From contig NZCA01000007.1 in NCBI GenBank assembly GCA_002688095.1, positions 1 through 49,295 of the forward strand: a stretch of DNA of 49,295 bases, in the 5' to 3' direction. The position numbers and the translations under genes are program-made. The DNA is from Nanobdellota archaeon (lineage in GTDB: Archaea > Nanobdellota > Nanobdellia > SCGC-AAA011-G17 > ARS1403). This document shows, in pieces, positions 24,570-42,639 of this stretch; within the stretch, counting starts at the first letter, position 1, and every line of letters begins with the position of its first letter. The notes beneath the pieces were generated by a model. It did no database searches. It was not told the DNA's origin and saw only the letters and a list, made by a program, of their open reading frames with translations.

Positions 24570-25987
24570 ATTGTATTTTTAATTAATTCAAAAATGGTTT
24601 TGGGATTTACCTTTCCAGCGTATTTCTGCATTAGGATTCCCATTATGGCATTCGGGGTTAAATTTGGGTCTTTTTCAAATATATCTTTGATTTCTTTTTG
24701 AATCTTGGTGACTGGAATTTGCTCATAATCTTCTAGGTTTATTTTTTGATTTTTAGCTATTTTTTGTAATATATCCAGAATTGCTTCTTTTTGTAAGTTG
24801 TGTTTGTTTGTTAAATTTAAAACTGTTTCAAAGTCTTTCAATTTGTAATTATAATTTAAATTATATCTGGCTTTAAGGTCTTTAGGGAATTCTATTAGGA
24901 TTTGGGCTATTAATTTAGGAGATATTTTTGGATAGGGTTTTGTTAATTTTTCAAAAGGAAATTTCTTTTTTATAATCTCTTTAGCTAATTCCGGAGTTAA
25001 GTTAAATTCTTGTTCTAATTTTAAGGCTTTTTCTGTTATTAATTCGGGGATTTTTATGGAATTAATTAAGGATTTTGAAATCTTGTATTCTAATAAATCT
25101 GTATCTGGATAGAACCTCGATTTTCCTGGGAGTGGACGTAGAAATGTGGTTGTACTGTCTGTGTCTACTCTTCTCACTTCTTTTTCTATTTTTCTATTTT
25201 GTTTTATTAAATCTAATTGCCTTTTTATTTCTGTTTCTATAACTTTTGGCATGTCTTTGAGATTTTGAAATCCTTTTAGCTCTATTCTTGCTTTATTTTG
25301 GATAGAGAGATTAATGTCCTGACGTTTGGTACCAACTCCGACTTTTATTTTTTCTGTAGATTTTAGGATTATGCCAAGTAATTCTGCTGTCTCTTTAGCA
25401 TGTTCTGGGTCTTTTATATCTGGTAGGGTGGCTATTTCTATAAGGGGAAATCCTAGTCTGTCTACTCTATAAGTTATTTCATTTTTCCCCCCTTTGATTT
25501 TTCTAGCTGCATCTTCTTCTAGATATATTGCGGGAATTCTGACTTTGCCTTTGGAGGTATTTATATGACCATTTTCTGCGATTAAAGTAGTCCTTTGATA
25601 AGAACTGGGATTTGAACCGTCGATAATAATTTTACGCATTACTTTAATTTTATGAAGAATTTTAGCGTTGAGTAAGAGAGAAATTTCTAGAGCTATTTTT
25701 AGGGCTTCTTGATTCATTGTAGAAGGGGGTTCAGAATCAATATCTACAAGACATCCATATTGATTAGAGTATTCATAAATAAACGTTTTATCTTTAGATT
25801 CTTCGTATAAAGTAGCAATGTCTTTTTTTCCAGCTTCTCCTGCTACAGATCGGAGTTTACGTCTTATTGTGAGTTCTGGTTTATCGTTATCGATTACCGT
25901 TGGGCATCTGCAAAAGAGTTTGGAACTTTCTAGTTGAGCGTGAAGCTCTAATCCACATTTGAAATTTAAGTCTTCGTAGTTTAACAT
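24566..25987 (-). CDS. gatE: Glu-tRNA(Gln) amidotransferase subunit E (GatE), short form
   Basis: 473 aa. GatE is the archaeal GatB paralog that activates Glu-tRNA-Gln, while GatD supplies ammonia. GatE-specific blocks are present: KCGLELHAQLESSKLFCRCP (Cys26, Cys28), IRRKLRSVAGEAG, VMRKIIIDGSNPSSYQRTTL, EEDAARKI and TYRVDRLGFPLIEIATLPDI. Family members are usually about 620 aa with an AspRS-like GAD domain inserted before the RPLPG...YPDTD block. Here RRVDTDSTTTFLRPLPGKSR follows directly, so the insertion is missing, not truncated at an end. The tail domain remains (PNAIMGILMQKYAGKVNPKTI). The start overlaps the HE2 stop by seven bases. gatD is 2.5 kb further in its own unit. Confidence 0.88.
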   Translation of the reverse strand: MLNYEDLNFKCGLELHAQLESSKLFCRCPTVIDNDKPELTIRRKLRSVAGEAGKKDIATLYEESKDKTFIYEYSNQYGCLVDIDSEPPSTMNQEALKIALEISLLLNAKILHKIKVMRKIIIDGSNPSSYQRTTLIAENGHINTSKGKVRIPAIYLEEDAARKIKGGKNEITYRVDRLGFPLIEIATLPDIKDPEHAKETAELLGIILKSTEKIKVGVGTKRQDINLSIQNKARIELKGFQNLKDMPKVIETEIKRQLDLIKQNRKIEKEVRRVDTDSTTTFLRPLPGKSRFYPDTDLLEYKISKSLINSIKIPELITEKALKLEQEFNLTPELAKEIIKKKFPFEKLTKPYPKISPKLIAQILIEFPKDLKARYNLNYNYKLKDFETVLNLTNKHNLQKEAILDILQKIAKNQKINLEDYEQIPVTKIQKEIKDIFEKDPNLTPNAIMGILMQKYAGKVNPKTIFELIKNTI

Positions 25988-27186
25988 TTTAAGTCCTTAT
26001 ACCATTTTGGTAATTTATATTCTTTTAAATCTTTAGTTAGGATTTTTGAGAAGAAAAGTTCTAAAACACCGCTACAAAATAAAGGTACATCTTTTGAAGT
26101 ATACCTTGCTTTTATGTCAAATATATTTTCTATAGATTTTATTATTTTTTGAGGATTTTTGTTAAATGATTTAACATGACACCTGCTTAATCCTAAACTG
26201 CCAGAGTGTGGTCTTATGAATTTTATCATATGTATAATTTTTTTATTTATATATAAAGGCATTTTTATTGAATTTGTAGAACCTTTGCTTAATTTAAATC
26301 TGTAATTCGATATTTCTTTTAAAAATTCTATTTTTGATATTCCAATATTTTTTAGATCTTGATATAATTCAATAAATTTAACATTATTTCTTCTACTTTT
26401 AAACCCAATTTTATATTTTTTTAGAATTTCTTTACCTTTTACTATGAATATTCTTTGATCAAATATTTTGGTATAATCTATTATTTTTTTATTTATTAGA
26501 AGGGGTTTAATGTTTGTTCTGTTTTTGGAATACATTCCTTTATTTAAATGTTTAATTAACCAATTTTGTTTTCTGGGATGTATAAATCCGATGAGACTTG
26601 TATATTTATCATAAAAAGGAGATTTTATTATTGTTAAAAAAGAACTTTTATCTGAAATATAGCCTTTCCTATTTTCTGGTTTTATTTCTTTGAGTTCTGT
26701 TATAATCTTGTTTTTTTTTAGAAAATTTTGAAAATCAACTACCAAATTCTTATTGCACATCTCTAGAGCTATTTTTCTTCCATTTTGGGCTATTATTCCA
26801 TCTCCGTCCATTAGACCTAACCAAAAATATTTTTCTAGATTTGTCTTTTTATAATATTTTGGAATATTTATTTTATTTGATTTTGGACCTGGTTGAAAAT
26901 TAAATTTATTTTTGAATATATTTTCTAATTTTTTATCTTTAAAGTATAAGACATATCGATTTCCTCTTTGTCTAATTTTTGGAATTTTTTTAGATAACTG
27001 TTCTTCAAATAGATCCTTAATATTTTTAACGAATTGGTAAGAATGTTGTAATTCTTTTTTATCCCCATAACCATCAGTAAATTCGAATTGACATGTATTT
27101 TTCCAATTATCTTTATAGAAACAACCATCTGCTGTGAAGTATCCCATTAAATATGCGAATTTTGGTGTTTTTATTTTTTCTTCCAT
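25981..27186 (-). CDS. Free-standing LAGLIDADG homing endonuclease (HE2)
   Basis: 401 aa. Motif 1, AYLMGYFTAD (residues 11-20), is at the very N-terminus. Motif 2, FWLGLMDGDG, is at residues 121-130. Both have the catalytic acidic residue. The 200-residue C-terminal part is extra, basic and partly helical. It has no intein blocks, and gatE is intact. It lies between a TrmB-type regulator (25-base gap) and gatE (7-base overlap), the same position HE1 has between an Lrp regulator and gatB. HE1 and HE2 are not obviously alike outside the motifs. Confidence 0.8.
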   Translation of the reverse strand: MEEKIKTPKFAYLMGYFTADGCFYKDNWKNTCQFEFTDGYGDKKELQHSYQFVKNIKDLFEEQLSKKIPKIRQRGNRYVLYFKDKKLENIFKNKFNFQPGPKSNKINIPKYYKKTNLEKYFWLGLMDGDGIIAQNGRKIALEMCNKNLVVDFQNFLKKNKIITELKEIKPENRKGYISDKSSFLTIIKSPFYDKYTSLIGFIHPRKQNWLIKHLNKGMYSKNRTNIKPLLINKKIIDYTKIFDQRIFIVKGKEILKKYKIGFKSRRNNVKFIELYQDLKNIGISKIEFLKEISNYRFKLSKGSTNSIKMPLYINKKIIHMIKFIRPHSGSLGLSRCHVKSFNKNPQKIIKSIENIFDIKARYTSKDVPLFCSGVLELFFSKILTKDLKEYKLPKWYKDLKC

Positions 27187-29825: not shown

Positions 29826-30899
29826 ATGGAATTTATCGTACAAAACGCTATAAACGAATCTTCTAATGAAGAAAAATTTGGAGACCTGGCTGTGGGCAAT
29901 GCCAATATTAAGGTGATTGGTACTGGTGGAGCAGGAGGTAATATGGTTTCTTGGTTATATAAAAAAGGTATTCAGGGTGCAGAAATAATTGCGGTGAATA
30001 CAGATCAACAACATCTGGATGTGCATGAGGCTGATAGAAAAGTCTTGATTGGAAGAGAATTGACAAAAGGTTTGGGTGCAGGTGGATTCCCTCAAAAAGG
30101 TTTAGAAGCAGCACGAGAAAATATTCAAGAAATTAAAGATTCTTTAAAAGATGCAGACATGATTTTTATAACTGCGGGGATGGGTGGCGGTACTGGTACG
30201 GGTGCGGCTCCTGTTATTGCAAAATTAGCTAAAGAACAAGGTGCAATTGTTATTGGAACTGTAACTATGCCCTTTGCTTTGGAAAGAGCAAGAATAGATA
30301 AAGCAGAGTTTGGGTTGCAGGAATTGAGACAAGTTTCAGATTCAGTAATTGTGATAGATAATAATAGATTAGTTTCTATTGCTGGAAACTTACCTATTGA
30401 ACAAGCATTTGCAGTGGCTAATGAATTAGTAAGTACCATGATTAAAGCTATTGTGGAAACTATTGCTGTTCCTTCTCTAGTGAATTTAGATTATGCAGAT
30501 GTAAAAGCAATTATGAGTGATTGCGGAGTATGTAGTATTGGCGTGGGTGAATCAGATACTGAACAGAAAGTGGAAGAAGCAACTAGAAGAGCTTTGACTA
30601 ATCCTTTATTAGATATTAGTTATAAAGGTGCTTCGGGAGCAATGATCCATATAGAAGGTGGAAGTGATTTAACATTGGAAGAAGTGAGCAAGATTGGAGA
30701 TATAGTGACTGAAAGTCTGGATAAGGATGCCAATGTAATCTGGGGTGCAAGGATTAACTCAGATATGAAAGGAAAATTAAGAGTTATGACTATTGTGGCG
30801 GGTGTAACTTCGCCATATATATTAGGTAAGATGGATAACCAGGCTGCCGTTGCGGAAAGAGCGCAAATGGGAGAAGAGTTGGGTATCGATATTCTGTAA
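29826..30899 (+). CDS. ftsZ: Cell division GTPase FtsZ
   Basis: 357 aa. Tubulin-superfamily GTPase that forms the division ring. GTP-binding signature: IGTGGAGGNMV (residues about 31-41), then GMGGGTGTG at about 118-126, TVTMPFALERAR, and IDNNRL (T6). The C-terminal domain (LLDISYKGASGAMIHIEGG...VIWGARI) is complete. The last part, EELGIDIL, is the short motif typical of archaeal FtsZ ends. The start follows AAAAAGGGGGAAT. The gene has its own promoter and terminator and is monocistronic. Unusual structured DNA lies upstream. Confidence 0.95.
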   Translation: MEFIVQNAINESSNEEKFGDLAVGNANIKVIGTGGAGGNMVSWLYKKGIQGAEIIAVNTDQQHLDVHEADRKVLIGRELTKGLGAGGFPQKGLEAARENIQEIKDSLKDADMIFITAGMGGGTGTGAAPVIAKLAKEQGAIVIGTVTMPFALERARIDKAEFGLQELRQVSDSVIVIDNNRLVSIAGNLPIEQAFAVANELVSTMIKAIVETIAVPSLVNLDYADVKAIMSDCGVCSIGVGESDTEQKVEEATRRALTNPLLDISYKGASGAMIHIEGGSDLTLEEVSKIGDIVTESLDKDANVIWGARINSDMKGKLRVMTIVAGVTSPYILGKMDNQAAVAERAQMGEELGIDIL

Positions 30900-35589: not shown

Positions 35590-36300
35590 ATGAAAACTGG
35601 AGATTTGGCTGAAATAATGGGGATTCACATTGGAGATGGATGTATTAGCGAGAATGAAAGGTATTCCGAGTATTATCTTGGAGGAGATTTGAAAGAGGAA
35701 AAATTATATCATGATGGGTGGGTGGCTCCTCTTTTTAATAGAATAGTTATGTTGCCCTTGTTTAATAAAAAAGTAGAATATAAAGAACACCCCAAAGTAG
35801 GGGTTTATGGATTTTATATTTTTAATAAAGAATTGGTTGATTTTTTTAAAAGACAGGGAGCTCCTTCAGGATCTAAACTTAAAGTAACTATCCCTTTTTG
35901 GATATTGAAAAATGAAGACTATTCAAAGAGATTTTTGAGAGGATTATTTGATACAGATGGTACAATTTATTTTGATAAGAATAGAAGTTGTAAAAATCCA
36001 ATAAATAATCGTCCTGATATAAAGTTGGCTAGTGTATCTGAGAAATTGATTAAGCAAGTTTATGATATCTTGAAGAAATTTGGGTTAAACCCTATGATGA
36101 AAAAACCTTACAAAGGGAAGAAAGATAAAAATCGGGTTTATGCTGTTAGGATCTATAGAAAATTGGATATTGAATATTTTATTAAGGAAATTGAGTTTAA
36201 AAATCCAAAACACTATACTAAATGGTTGGTTTTTAAAAAAGTGGGTTATTGTCTTCCTAAAACTACTTTAAATCAGAGATTAGATTTTTTAGAGAAATGA
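35590..36300 (+). CDS. Free-standing LAGLIDADG homing endonuclease (HE3)
   Basis: 236 aa, compact two-motif LAGLIDADG protein. Motif 1 is EIMGIHIGDG (residues 8-17) and motif 2 FLRGLFDTDG (residues 115-124), each with the catalytic Asp. The remainder has typical beta-strand phrases (YGFYIFNKELVDFF and RVYAVRIYRKLDIEYF). No intein blocks. It ends 37 bases before the double-intron tRNA-Leu gene, which is followed by the intron-containing tRNA-Thr. It has its own promoter. A link to tRNA introns is possible but it is not inside one. Confidence 0.82.
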   Translation: MKTGDLAEIMGIHIGDGCISENERYSEYYLGGDLKEEKLYHDGWVAPLFNRIVMLPLFNKKVEYKEHPKVGVYGFYIFNKELVDFFKRQGAPSGSKLKVTIPFWILKNEDYSKRFLRGLFDTDGTIYFDKNRSCKNPINNRPDIKLASVSEKLIKQVYDILKKFGLNPMMKKPYKGKKDKNRVYAVRIYRKLDIEYFIKEIEFKNPKHYTKWLVFKKVGYCLPKTTLNQRLDFLEK

Positions 36301-36304
36301 AAAC

Positions 36305-36316
36305 TTTTATAAATTT
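36305..36316 (+). promoter_or_regulatory. TATA box of tRNA-Leu
   Basis: TTTTATAAATTT is centred about 27 bases before the first base of the tRNA at 36338. Confidence 0.55.
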
Positions 36317-36369
36317 GAATTCTTGATTTTTAAACATGCGGGAGTGCCGGAGTCTGGAAAACGGGCAGG

Positions 36370-36398
36370 AACAAGTTTCTATTTGAAATTGTTGCCAA
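36370..36398 (+). other. tRNA-Leu intron 1 (29 nt, position 30/31)
   Basis: Bulge-helix-bulge support: GGCA (36364-36367) pairs with TGCC (36393-36396). Three-base bulges GGA and AAA flank it, each cut after the second base. The intron itself folds as ACAA-G-TTTC / GAAATTGT with one bulged G around TATTT. The exchange of A370 for A399 restores the fifth anticodon-stem base. Confidence 0.75.
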
Positions 36399-36405
36399 AC
36401 TTAAG

Positions 36406-36421
36406 TTTTCCACAAGAAGAC
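36406..36421 (+). other. tRNA-Leu intron 2 (16 nt, position 37/38)
   Basis: At the canonical 37/38 site. CTTA (36400-36403) faces GAAG (36416-36419), three of four pairs, with bulges AGT and ACA cut after the second base. The geometry only forms next to the CAGGA/TCCTG stem once intron 1 is gone, so an order of splicing is implied. At 16 bases it is near the lower size limit for archaeal tRNA introns. Confidence 0.7.
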
Positions 36422-36476
36422 ATCCTGTGGCTTAGTGCCTACGCAGGTTCAAATCCTGTCTCCCGCATCCATAATG

Positions 36477-36508: not shown

Positions 36509-36621
36509 GCCCTGGTAGCTCAGTCGGTTAGAGCGTTACATTGGTAGAACCCTTTAAAAAAGCGTTCACGGAAAGGGATCCAAAGATGTAGAGGCCGAGA
36601 GTTCGATTCTCTCCCAGGGCT
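36509..36621 (+). tRNA. tRNA-Thr(GGU) with one intron
   Basis: Acceptor arms GCCCTGG (36509-36515) and CCAGGGC (36614-36620), discriminator T. D arm GCTC...GAGC. T arm GAGAG-TTCGATT-CTCTC. Anticodon stem TTACA/TGTAG. The anticodon loop TTGGTA-A gives anticodon GGT after removal of the intron 36547-36585. The mature tRNA is 74 bases and has no encoded CCA. Confidence 0.88.
36547..36585 (+). other. tRNA-Thr intron (39 nt) related to the dispersed stem-loop element
   Basis: Canonical 37/38 intron. TTGG (36541-36544) pairs perfectly with CCAA (36581-36584 region), and bulges TAG and AGA are cut after the second base. Inside, CCCTTT pairs with AAAGGG. The inner text, GAACCCTTT-AAAAAAGCGTTC-ACGGAAA, matches the dispersed intergenic element (GAACC...AAAAGCGTTC with ACGGAAA tail) over nearly its whole length. 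Confidence 0.75.
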
Positions 36622-39042: not shown

Positions 39043-39076
39043 GAACCCCTTTTAAAAAAAAGCGTTCACGGAAAAA
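39043..39076 (+). repeat. Stem-loop element between pilins 4 and 5
   Basis: GAAC-CC-CTTTT (39043-39053), A-rich loop, AAAAG-C-GTTC ending at 39067, tail ACGGAAAAAAG. A degenerate half unit (GGAAACTTTATTAAAAAA) precedes it. Confidence 0.65.
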
Positions 39077-39611: not shown

Positions 39612-39657
39612 GAAGTTTTATATATTGTTTTTGATAATTCTATTAAAGAGGGATATA

Positions 39658-42639
39658 ATGTTTGAAAAATTAACTTCTAAAATCAAAGAGGAATTGAAGA
39701 AACCGTTGTTTAATAAGGATAAAGGGAAGGCTCCTTCAACTCCGAAAGAAGAGGGAAAGGGAAAAGAAGAATTAAAGTTTAAAATTAATTTTAATCCGCC
39801 TAAACCAGATTTACCAGATATACAAGATAAAACTAAGGTAGATTTTAGATATGCAATTTTAGCGCCTTATTCTTATATTCACTTATATTGGGATGAAGTA
39901 CATGGAGAAGTGGTGTATCAGGTGGAAGAACCTAATTTAGACGTTAAAGAGAAAGAAGTGTTGAATTTATTAGAACAAGGGATTCAAGAATTAATTGATA
40001 TTAGTTTTATTAATGTAGATGATAAAGAAGTGTTGATTGAGTATTTAGAGAAAAATGTGAATGTTTTAATTAAAGAATTAGGAATAGATGTGCAAAGGGC
40101 GTCATATTTGAAGATTATGTACTATATATATAGGGATTTTATTGGGTTAAATAAAATAGAAGCACTAATGAATGATCCGCATATTGAAGATATTGAGTGT
40201 AATGGTAAAGGCACTCCTGTTTATATTGTGCATAGAAAATTCGGGAATATCAAAACGAATATTGTGTATGAAAATATTGATGAATTGGTAAGTTTTGTGG
40301 AAAAATTAGCTCAAAAATGTGGGAAATATGTGAGTTATGCTAGCCCTATTATGGATGGTAGGTTGCCAAGTGGAGATAGGGTAAATGCTACTTATACCGA
40401 GGATGTGACAAGTAAAGGGCCTACTTTTAGTATTAGGAGGTTTACTAGGGAAGCTTGGAGTCCGATTAAATTAATGCAAGTGGGAACTGTTTCAGCAGAA
40501 ATTATGGCTTATTTATGGTTGTTGGTGGAGAATGGAAGTAATATTTTAATTGTGGGGGGAACAGGTTCGGGAAAAACTAGTTTAGTAAATGTCTTAGCGT
40601 CTTTTATTAAGCCTGAAGCGAGGATTGTAACTATTGAAGATACTCGAGAATTGAAATTGATTCATGAGAATTGGTTACCAAGTGTGGCGAGAGCTGGAGC
40701 TGGAGTGGGAGAAGAGAAAGCAGGGGAGATTACATTATTTGATTTGTTAAAAGCGAGTTTTAGGCAAAGACCAGATTATGTGGTTGTGGGAGAGATAAGA
40801 GGTAAAGAAGCATTTGTGTTATTTCAGGGAATGGCTTCAGTCAAAGGAGATGAAAAATTAATGTTGTTGAATCATGATCATCCAAGACAAATAAGTATTA
40901 AAGATTTGGAGAAAAATATTAAATATAAAGCTCTTTCTATAAATCCTGAAACGGCTAAAGCGAATATTTTGCCTGTGGAAGCTAAAATTAGACATTCTCC
41001 CAGGGATAAGTTATTGAAAATAAAAACTAAAAGTGGTAGGGAAGTAGTAATTACTTATGATCATTCTTTGTTTACTTATGATAACCAAATAGTTCCTATT
41101 AGAGGAGATGAATTAAAGAAAGGAAGTGTGGTGTTGATTCCAGGTAAGATTCCTTGCGGATATGCGGATATAGGGTATCTTAATTTATTGGAATTTTTGC
41201 CTGAGATGAGAGTCTTTGCACCTAAATATATAAGAAAGGCGGTATCTAAATTGGGTTATGATAAATCTTGCGAAATTGTAGAACTCAAGGCTATTTCAGA
41301 TTATTATGCAAATTTCTCTAGATCTAAACAATCTTCTTTGAAAGTTGATAAGTTTTTGAAATTGATTAAAGCTGCAGAAATAGAGTATGATTTGGAAGAT
41401 CTTGCTGTTAAATTTCTTAGAAAAAGTAAAAGCTTTCCTGCTAGATTTAAAGTTACGGATGAATTTTTGAGACTTTTAGGTTATTATATTTCGGATGGAA
41501 GTATAAATAATAGTGGGAAAAATAGTTCTATTTGTTTATATAATAAGGATGAACGAATTTTGAAAGATATGAGAAGATGTATTAAAAAGATAGGTTTGAA
41601 AATTAGAGAAAGGATTACAGATAGGGGATTTGGAAGTGCTACTGAACTCCACTTTACTCATAAAGTTTTGTTTGAATTTATAAATAAATATTGTGGGAAA
41701 GGGGCTGTTAATAAAAAAATACCGGATTTTATTTTCGGGCTTAGTAAAAAAAGAATTGGTGAATTTTTAACGGGTTTATATAATGGAGATGGTTATTTTG
41801 ATACAAGAAGAATTGGTTATTCTAGTGTGTCTAAGGAACTTATAGATAGTTTGTGTAAATTGCTTCTTGTGTATGGTGTTGTGGGGAGAATTTCTAAAAA
41901 GAAAAAATATGGGATAAGCAAACTTTCAAGTTATGAAATTATGCTTTATAGATATAATGAAATGAAGGAGTTTTTGAAGTATGTTAAACCCTTAAAAGGA
42001 AGAAATATTAGGGAAGTTGTTAGGGCGATTAATACTAATCGGATTGGAGATGTTTATTTGGATAAAGTTATGGGAATAGAAGAAATAAAACTGAAAAAAC
42101 CAGAATTTGTTTATGATATTTCTGTTCCAGGGGATCAAAATTTTATTGGAGGTTTTGGAGGTGTGTTATTGCATAATTCTGGGCATTCAGGTATAAGTAC
42201 TATGCATGCGGATGATGTTAAAACAGTTATTCGTAGATTAGAAACTGAACCTATAAATCTAAGCCCAAGTTTAGTGGAAACTTTGGATGTGATTTGTTTG
42301 ATGGTTTATGCTAAAGTGCAAGGAGAAAATGCAAGGAAGATGAAAGCCATTCAAGAGGTAATTAGTGTAAAGGCAGGAGGAGAAAGTGAGGTTAATGTAC
42401 CTTTTATGTGGGATCCTAGAAGAAATGTATTTATGTTTAAAAGGGAAAGTGTAGCTTTTAAAAAAATTATAGCTAAAAGAGGGGGGAGTATGGAAGAGTT
42501 AAATAAAGAATTTGATAGAAGAGTTAAATTATTGAATAAACTGTATCAACAAAAGATTGTGAAATTTGAGGATGTGCAAAAAATAATTGGGAGCTATTAT
42601 AAAAATAAAGAAATGGTGTTGAAAAGGTTTGGGTTATGA
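39658..42639 (+). CDS. Type IV pilus/KlbA-like secretion ATPase with intein
   Basis: 993 aa from the ATG at 39658, which follows AAAGAGGGAT; an upstream in-frame TTG has no support. The exteins total 546 aa. They form a GspE/VirB11-superfamily ATPase that powers pilin assembly: an N-terminal domain (residues 1-230), Walker A GGTGSGKT (300-307), an Asp-box region TIEDTREL, Walker B VVVGEIRG, and the His box STMHADDV downstream of the intein. The intein (residues 394-840) lies between Walker B and the His box. The gene shares ATGA with the next. The spliced join reads FQGMA-SGHSGIST. Confidence 0.9.
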   Translation: MFEKLTSKIKEELKKPLFNKDKGKAPSTPKEEGKGKEELKFKINFNPPKPDLPDIQDKTKVDFRYAILAPYSYIHLYWDEVHGEVVYQVEEPNLDVKEKEVLNLLEQGIQELIDISFINVDDKEVLIEYLEKNVNVLIKELGIDVQRASYLKIMYYIYRDFIGLNKIEALMNDPHIEDIECNGKGTPVYIVHRKFGNIKTNIVYENIDELVSFVEKLAQKCGKYVSYASPIMDGRLPSGDRVNATYTEDVTSKGPTFSIRRFTREAWSPIKLMQVGTVSAEIMAYLWLLVENGSNILIVGGTGSGKTSLVNVLASFIKPEARIVTIEDTRELKLIHENWLPSVARAGAGVGEEKAGEITLFDLLKASFRQRPDYVVVGEIRGKEAFVLFQGMASVKGDEKLMLLNHDHPRQISIKDLEKNIKYKALSINPETAKANILPVEAKIRHSPRDKLLKIKTKSGREVVITYDHSLFTYDNQIVPIRGDELKKGSVVLIPGKIPCGYADIGYLNLLEFLPEMRVFAPKYIRKAVSKLGYDKSCEIVELKAISDYYANFSRSKQSSLKVDKFLKLIKAAEIEYDLEDLAVKFLRKSKSFPARFKVTDEFLRLLGYYISDGSINNSGKNSSICLYNKDERILKDMRRCIKKIGLKIRERITDRGFGSATELHFTHKVLFEFINKYCGKGAVNKKIPDFIFGLSKKRIGEFLTGLYNGDGYFDTRRIGYSSVSKELIDSLCKLLLVYGVVGRISKKKKYGISKLSSYEIMLYRYNEMKEFLKYVKPLKGRNIREVVRAINTNRIGDVYLDKVMGIEEIKLKKPEFVYDISVPGDQNFIGGFGGVLLHNSGHSGISTMHADDVKTVIRRLETEPINLSPSLVETLDVICLMVYAKVQGENARKMKAIQEVISVKAGGESEVNVPFMWDPRRNVFMFKRESVAFKKIIAKRGGSMEELNKEFDRRVKLLNKLYQQKIVKFEDVQKIIGSYYKNKEMVLKRFGL
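40837..42177 (+). other. Intein with LAGLIDADG endonuclease domain
   Basis: 447 aa. Block A is SVKGDEKLML, starting with Ser in place of the usual Cys. Block B is KIKTKSGREVVITYDHSLF. Block F/G is YDISVPGDQNFIGGFGGVLLHN, with the terminal HN and Ser as the first extein residue. The central endonuclease has motifs RLLGYYISDG and FLTGLYNGDG. All parts needed for splicing and homing look intact. Inteins in archaeal KlbA-type ATPases are known, and there residue 1 can also deviate from Cys. Confidence 0.9.

Follow-up and report, generated by a model that had tools for sequence, protein, structure and literature searches.

The locus at 36338–36467 on the forward strand of the DNA analyzed here is probably a working, apparently single-copy gene for tRNA-Leu(UAA), whose two bulge-helix-bulge (BHB) introns would be lost in a fixed order, helped by a helix between the D-arm and the second intron. 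The analyzed stretch, referred to as the window in the following, comprises 49,295 nucleotides and is the entire contig C7 of a genome of 605,723 bases in 15 contigs that is 81% complete. A sequence-only reading had previously placed two introns in this locus and proposed that they are spliced in order; the sequence and all the coordinates that it gave were correct. Its headline, a double-intron tRNA with a forced splicing order, is a further case of a known archaeal kind, and neither feature is remarkable alone: ordered excision has already been described, and double introns are common in the clade. What it missed is that the start of the second intron is complementary to the D-arm, which looks like the most novel part.

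The gene and its setting

The window encodes a protein at 29826–30899 that we take to be FtsZ-like. Because this protein is 82–85% identical to proteins from three MAGs labelled Candidatus Woesearchaeota, the host can be regarded as a DPANN archaeon. In a genome search, the Rfam tRNA model matches at exactly 36338–36467, with 36.7 bits against a cut-off of 29 bits, whereas the locus is absent from the output of a whole-window cmscan with default filters and is missed by ARAGORN. A probable archaeal TATA box, CTTTTATAAA, can be read from the sequence at 36305–36314 (+), ~28 nt upstream of the mature 5' end, and the similar AACTTTTATAAAT is also found upstream of two orthologs (L035 and L062). 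UUA makes up 414 of the 686 leucine codons (60%) in 15 ORFs of the window. The sequence-only reading had suggested searching the genome for another Leu(UAA) gene; there is none among the tRNA matches of the 81% complete genome, in which the other leucine matches are Leu(CAA) at C9:60798 and Leu(GAG) at C6:15817. Given the UUA usage, the lack of a further Leu(UAA) match and the TATA-like box at the expected distance, it is very likely that the gene is active and essential.

The gene consists of five parts, all on the forward strand. Exon 1 (36338–36369) covers tRNA positions 1–30, and its first 28 nt match Leu(CAA) of this genome at every base. It is followed by intron 1 (36370–36398; 29 nt) at position 30/31, by a 7-nt middle exon, ACTTAAG (36399–36405), which is made up of A31 and CTTAAG and contains the anticodon TAA at 36402–36404, and by intron 2 (36406–36421; 16 nt) at position 37/38. 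Exon 3 (36422–36467) covers positions 38–73, and its stretch 36428–36467 is identical to the 3' part of the Leu(CAA) gene on contig C9 of this genome (G000). Outside the anticodon arm, exons 1 and 3 are thus identical to an intronless Leu(CAA) gene of the same genome. Removal of both introns yields a canonical tRNA, GCGGGAG TG CCGGAGTCTGGAAAACGGG CAGGA CTTAAGA TCCTG ..., an 84-nt class II leucine tRNA plus A73. Since unconstrained RNAfold predictions are not cloverleaf-shaped for the precursors or even for the mature tRNA, only folds with enforced acceptor, T and variable stems were used; under these settings, the spliced product adopts a cloverleaf in which the D and anticodon stems form unprompted.

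Both introns are needed for this result: in a hand check, no reading of the anticodon arm with a single intron gave a 7-nt loop with U33. An identity as Leu(AAG) was rejected, as U33 would be missing from any 7-nt loop, and so was a group I intron, as the introns measure only 29 and 16 nt and no Rfam group I model matches in the window.

Junctions in related genes

Relatives were collected from 60 related genomes by nucleotide search and from the 103-genome order by a pattern search. One of them (L079) is an intronless Leu(UAA) gene that differs from the spliced window gene only by two changes in a single pair of the D-stem, which keep the pairing (CCGG/CGGG to CCAG/TGGG). A second intronless ortholog is found in L070. 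Four further genes (L037, L040, L044 and L048) have intron 2 but not intron 1, and their sequence runs on without a break as CAGGACTTAAG or CAAGACTTAAG, with the middle exon joined to CAGG; in L044, the anticodon stem has changed in a compensatory manner to CAAGA/TCTTG. The same two sites are also occupied in other isoacceptors, namely in Leu(UAG) of L041 and L045 and in one Leu(CAA), L122. The intronless genes, those without intron 1 and the other isoacceptors therefore establish the reality of both the junctions and the 7-nt exon, which are common to a clade. Together with the covariation at the BHB sites described below, they bear out what the sequence-only reading had said of the junctions, of the presence of two introns and of the identity as Leu(UAA). 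That reading had also called the 7-nt exon and the 16-nt intron remarkable, yet both are ordinary within the group: the exon is present in every double-intron Leu(UAA/UAG/CAA) gene examined, and introns at 37/38 can be as short as 12 nt in related leucine genes.

These comparisons also bear on the idea that the locus holds a single 52-nt intron, which would include the 'middle exon', or is a dead pseudogene. The failure of ARAGORN to find the locus and its low Rfam score would be in keeping with this. However, no one-intron reading offers U33 with a plausible anticodon, the middle exon is contiguous with exon 1 in the intronless ortholog and in the relatives without intron 1, all stems are intact, and no other Leu(UAA) gene was found to read the commonest leucine codon. 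We therefore consider this explanation highly improbable.

Geometry of the two splice sites

The first site is a strict BHB, with the helix and bulges that the sequence-only reading had given. Its 5' side (36364–36370, +) contributes the helix strand GGCA and the bulge GG^A, and its 3' side (36393–36399, +) the strand TGCC and the bulge AA^A; the central helix GGCA/UGCC is accompanied by an intron hairpin. The intron-side flanking helix is thus present, while an exon-side flank is available only via the predicted pairing of the D-arm with intron 2. All 37 double-intron genes examined, including the window gene, have three or four of the four central pairs, in the compensatory forms GGCA/UGCC, GGCA/UGCU, AGCA/UGCU, GGCU/AGCC, GGCU/GGCC and GGAC/GUCC. 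As the pairing is kept through such changes in 37 of 37 genes, the BHB sites are not due to chance.

For the second site, the sequence-only reading was right about position 37/38, but 'canonical' was too strong a word. In the window gene, CUUA/GAAG forms three of four central pairs between the bulges AG^U and AC^A, and an intron-side helix is missing, as the 16-nt intron leaves no room for one; the site falls outside the strict definition and may work as a relaxed or minimal BHB. In general, CUUA pairs with an xxAG motif just 5' of the 3' bulge. Three or four of the four pairs are found in all but one gene, and the paired forms include CUCA/UGGG in a Leu(CAA). Orthologous second introns range from 12 to 47 nt, most of them having 12–26 nt and two 46–47 nt, and the short ones lack an intron-side helix.

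Ordered splicing, another proposal of that reading, is supported by the geometry: the GGCA strand of BHB 1 occupies positions 25–28 and therefore rules out the anticodon stem, on which BHB 2 depends.

Complementarity between the D-arm and intron 2

The segment GTTTTCC at 36405–36411 (+), made up of G37 and the six bases that open intron 2, is perfectly complementary to the D-loop segment GGAAAAC at 36356–36362 (+), a match that stands out both in pairing tests and in the predicted fold. The statistics use D-arm sequences that were compiled manually after exclusion of D-introns. None of 20,000 permutations reached the native pairing between the D-arm and the head of intron 2 in 20 non-redundant double-intron genes of the order; the same holds for a set of 28 double-intron genes (z = 5.9; 0/20,000), the permutation test leaving some shared ancestry in both figures. 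The complementarity is not a feature of just any intron segment: three parts of intron 1 give no signal against the D-arm (z from -0.4 to 0.6; p = 0.28–0.67), and the tail of intron 2 gives a weak one (z = 2.0; p = 0.027).

An independent set, which had no part in forming the idea, comprised 15 intron-bearing leucine genes from outside the order, found with a search pattern that excluded the D-arm and evaluated with the same scoring function. The nine genes with intron 1 show the signal (Fisher p = 2e-9 from per-gene shuffles; permutation p = 1.2e-4), and helices such as CGGAGTGGTC/GACCATTCCG, with 10 pairs, and AGAGTGGTC/GACCATTCT, with 9 pairs, are found in this set. In the six genes without intron 1, the signal is absent (p = 0.74).

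These observations have to be weighed against the view that the gene is an ordinary double-intron tRNA, in which the order follows solely from the sharing of positions 27–28 by BHB 1 and the anticodon stem, while the complementarity plays no part in splicing and reflects ancestry or the origin of intron 2. Ordered excision of closely spaced introns is indeed described in general terms in the tRNAscan-SE 2.0 paper (PMC8450103), and the complementarity is not universal. Approximately nine of the 28 double-intron genes have only 2–5 uninterrupted pairs (e.g. those of G022, G020, G100 and G267, and Leu(UAG) of G001), and within the order, genes of G001, G007, G027 and G101 that lack intron 1 are still complementary to the D-arm, possibly because they lost intron 1 recently; G006, a congener of G001, has it. 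On the other hand, the D-arm register shifts by lineage (GGAAAAC, GTCCGGAA, GAGCGGTC, CGGAGTGGTC, GGTCAAA) while the pairing is retained, so inheritance alone does not explain it. The signal is, moreover, concentrated in the head of intron 2 and disappears from the independent set where intron 1 is missing. Overall, we find this explanation unlikely.

A second alternative grants the helix a role as a lock that conceals the 5' splice site of intron 2 until intron 1 has been cut, and that is dispensable for the cutting of intron 1. In its favor, the paired segment spans G37 and the intron 2 cut site in most genes. Yet in G024, G094 and others, it begins within intron 2, at least one base beyond the cut, and a lock alone would leave unexplained why its partner lies in the D-arm, flanking BHB 1. 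This possibility appears rather doubtful to us.

A proposed order of splicing

The reading that we prefer is that the helix would serve both purposes: we infer that intron 2 contributes the outer helix for cleavage of intron 1 and conceals its own splice site up to that point. In the precursor, G37 and the first bases of intron 2 would pair with the D-arm. This helix would enclose the GGCA/UGCC BHB as its exon-side flank, which a strict BHB requires and which the cloverleaf cannot provide at 30/31, and would simultaneously mask the 5' splice site of intron 2. Cleavage by the tRNA splicing endonuclease would follow at 36369/36370 and 36398/36399, and the ends would be joined. Thereafter, the D-arm and the anticodon stem could form and build the minimal BHB 2, from which the 16-nt intron would be excised last to give the mature tRNA.

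Folding predictions with enforced acceptor, T and variable stems are in part consistent with this scheme. RNAfold assigns the helix between the D-arm and intron 2 a pair probability of ~0.97 in the window precursor, in which the GGCA/UGCC pairs of BHB 1 reach only ~0.18; after removal of intron 1, the helix is still predicted at 0.79, versus ~0.18 for the anticodon stem. Given the persistence of the helix and the low pairing of BHB 1, the switch would need tertiary contacts, modification or a protein such as the enzyme itself, and in these models, the structural switch after excision of intron 1 is the weakest link of the proposed mechanism.

In its strongest form, the proposal states that the D-arm antisense in the canonical intron is needed in cis for the excision of the upstream intron and delays its own, acting as guide and timer, in a clade that has reached four introns and five exons within an 84-nt tRNA. 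We lean towards this wording, with limited confidence. The complementarity extends to double-intron leucine genes across this class, and such a coupling of intron 2 to the D-arm looks new for archaeal tRNAs; the evidence comes from sequences throughout.

The splicing endonuclease

Both introns are predicted to be spliced by the tRNA endonuclease in the cell. The genome encodes one PF01974 endonuclease of 200 aa, located around C2:3241–3729, as do nearly all relatives searched, and no further PF01974 gene was found at E-values up to 10 in this genome and five relatives. The closest solved chain is the α subunit from Nanoarchaeum equitans (3iey_A), followed by the α4 enzyme from Methanocaldococcus jannaschii (1a79). 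No β subunit was found in the genome of the window, but a divergent one could have escaped the search, as 3iey_A belongs to an (αβ)2 enzyme. Endonucleases of the single-gene α type reportedly have a narrow specificity (PMC6379350), which would fit the need for a complete BHB 1 and would sit badly with the minimal intron 2.

Further introns in relatives

Five Leu(UAA) genes (L036, L038, L039, L042 and L095) from the genomes G006, G004, G037, G039 and G082, which represent three families, apparently contain four introns. In addition to both anticodon-arm introns, they have an intron of 11–15 nt in the D-stem/loop, with helices CCGG/CCGG or CCAG/CTGG, and one of 18–33 nt in the D-loop. The stated maximum for an archaeal tRNA is three introns (PMC8450103, PMC4033280), and a full-text search, outside of which many subscription papers lie, returned no report of a four-intron archaeal tRNA or of tRNA introns in Woesearchaeota. 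As a lead from sequence comparison, these genes would thus surpass the maximum given in the literature.

Other relatives vary in different ways. In three Leu(UAA) genes (L062, L093 and L099, from G052, G038 and G023), an apparent T-arm intron, recognized by eye, accompanies the two anticodon-arm introns. The congeners G101 and G102 differ in a 22-nt D-arm intron of Leu(UAA), CGGTCAGTAAAAGACCCTGGAG, which is present in one of their genes (L120 and L121) and not in the other; this difference would represent a recent gain or a clean loss. Three genes (L047, L098 and L242) carry two tandem intron-like units at 30/31, for example AATTAGAGTTGCCAA followed by ACTCAGATTGCCAA; each unit has usable 3' bulge ends, and splicing in two steps or as one intron could apply. 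In the Leu(UAG) gene of G018 (L075), the D-loop seems to be interrupted by an interval of ~690 nt, seemingly a long intron bearing an ORF, whose resemblance to LAGLIDADG proteins is weak (E 0.006, below the cut-off). Finally, a search of the 1.5 kb upstream of Leu(UAA) in G001 (L043) revealed no 5' exon. The sole exact match in G001 to the degenerate 15-nt 5' end, at C19:4093, lies 63 bases before another leucine match and probably belongs to a gene other than L043; a 256-aa ORF that has no Pfam match immediately precedes the 3' part of L043.

Other elements in the window

A free-standing LAGLIDADG_3 ORF at 35590–36300 (E 2e-14) ends 38 bases upstream of the tRNA-Leu gene and may be left over from the mobility of an intron or element. 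Another free LAGLIDADG_3 ORF is located at 25981–27186, and the type II/IV secretion ATPase gene (T2SSE) at 39625–42639 contains an intein that includes a LAGLIDADG domain. The window also harbors a tRNA-Thr(GGU) gene at 36509–36621 with a 40-nt intron at 37/38 (~36547–36586), which contains AACCCTTTAAAAAAGCGTTCACGGAAA. Near-copies of this element immediately follow the 3' end of the intronless Leu(CAA) gene (L002) and occur between genes at 39046 and 47059 of the window; a AACCCTTTAAAAAAGCGTTCACGGAAA-like pattern has 22 loose copies in the genome, versus one for the reversed pattern. It seems that a dispersed hairpin repeat serves as the intron of tRNA-Thr(GGU).

Comparison with known systems and significance

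The multi-intron tRNAs of Thermoproteales, Thaumarchaeota and Caldiarchaeum resemble the genes described here: they contain BHB introns at canonical and noncanonical sites (PMC8450103; PMC4033280; PMC3293823), have two or three introns per gene and include BHBs that form only after an earlier removal. In Caldiarchaeum, Leu(UAA) itself has multiple introns. The genes described here differ in that they belong to Woesearchaeota, in introns as short as 11–16 nt, in the head of intron 2 being antisense to the D-arm, and in the four introns apparent in some relatives. The split tRNA-Lys(CUU) of N. equitans and Staphylothermus shares the 30/31 junction and a strict BHB, but is assembled in trans from two halves, whereas the window gene is one transcript that is spliced in cis (PMC3218864).

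If the coupling is real, the position and order of introns in archaeal tRNAs would be more than the result of accumulated insertions, as one intron would depend on another. This could explain why a reduced genome has kept both in an essential tRNA, and why they persist jointly throughout an archaeal class. Genes such as those with four introns are easily missed by tRNA finders, and they make one ask how an endonuclease with apparently a single gene and a supposedly strict specificity copes with so many minimal introns.
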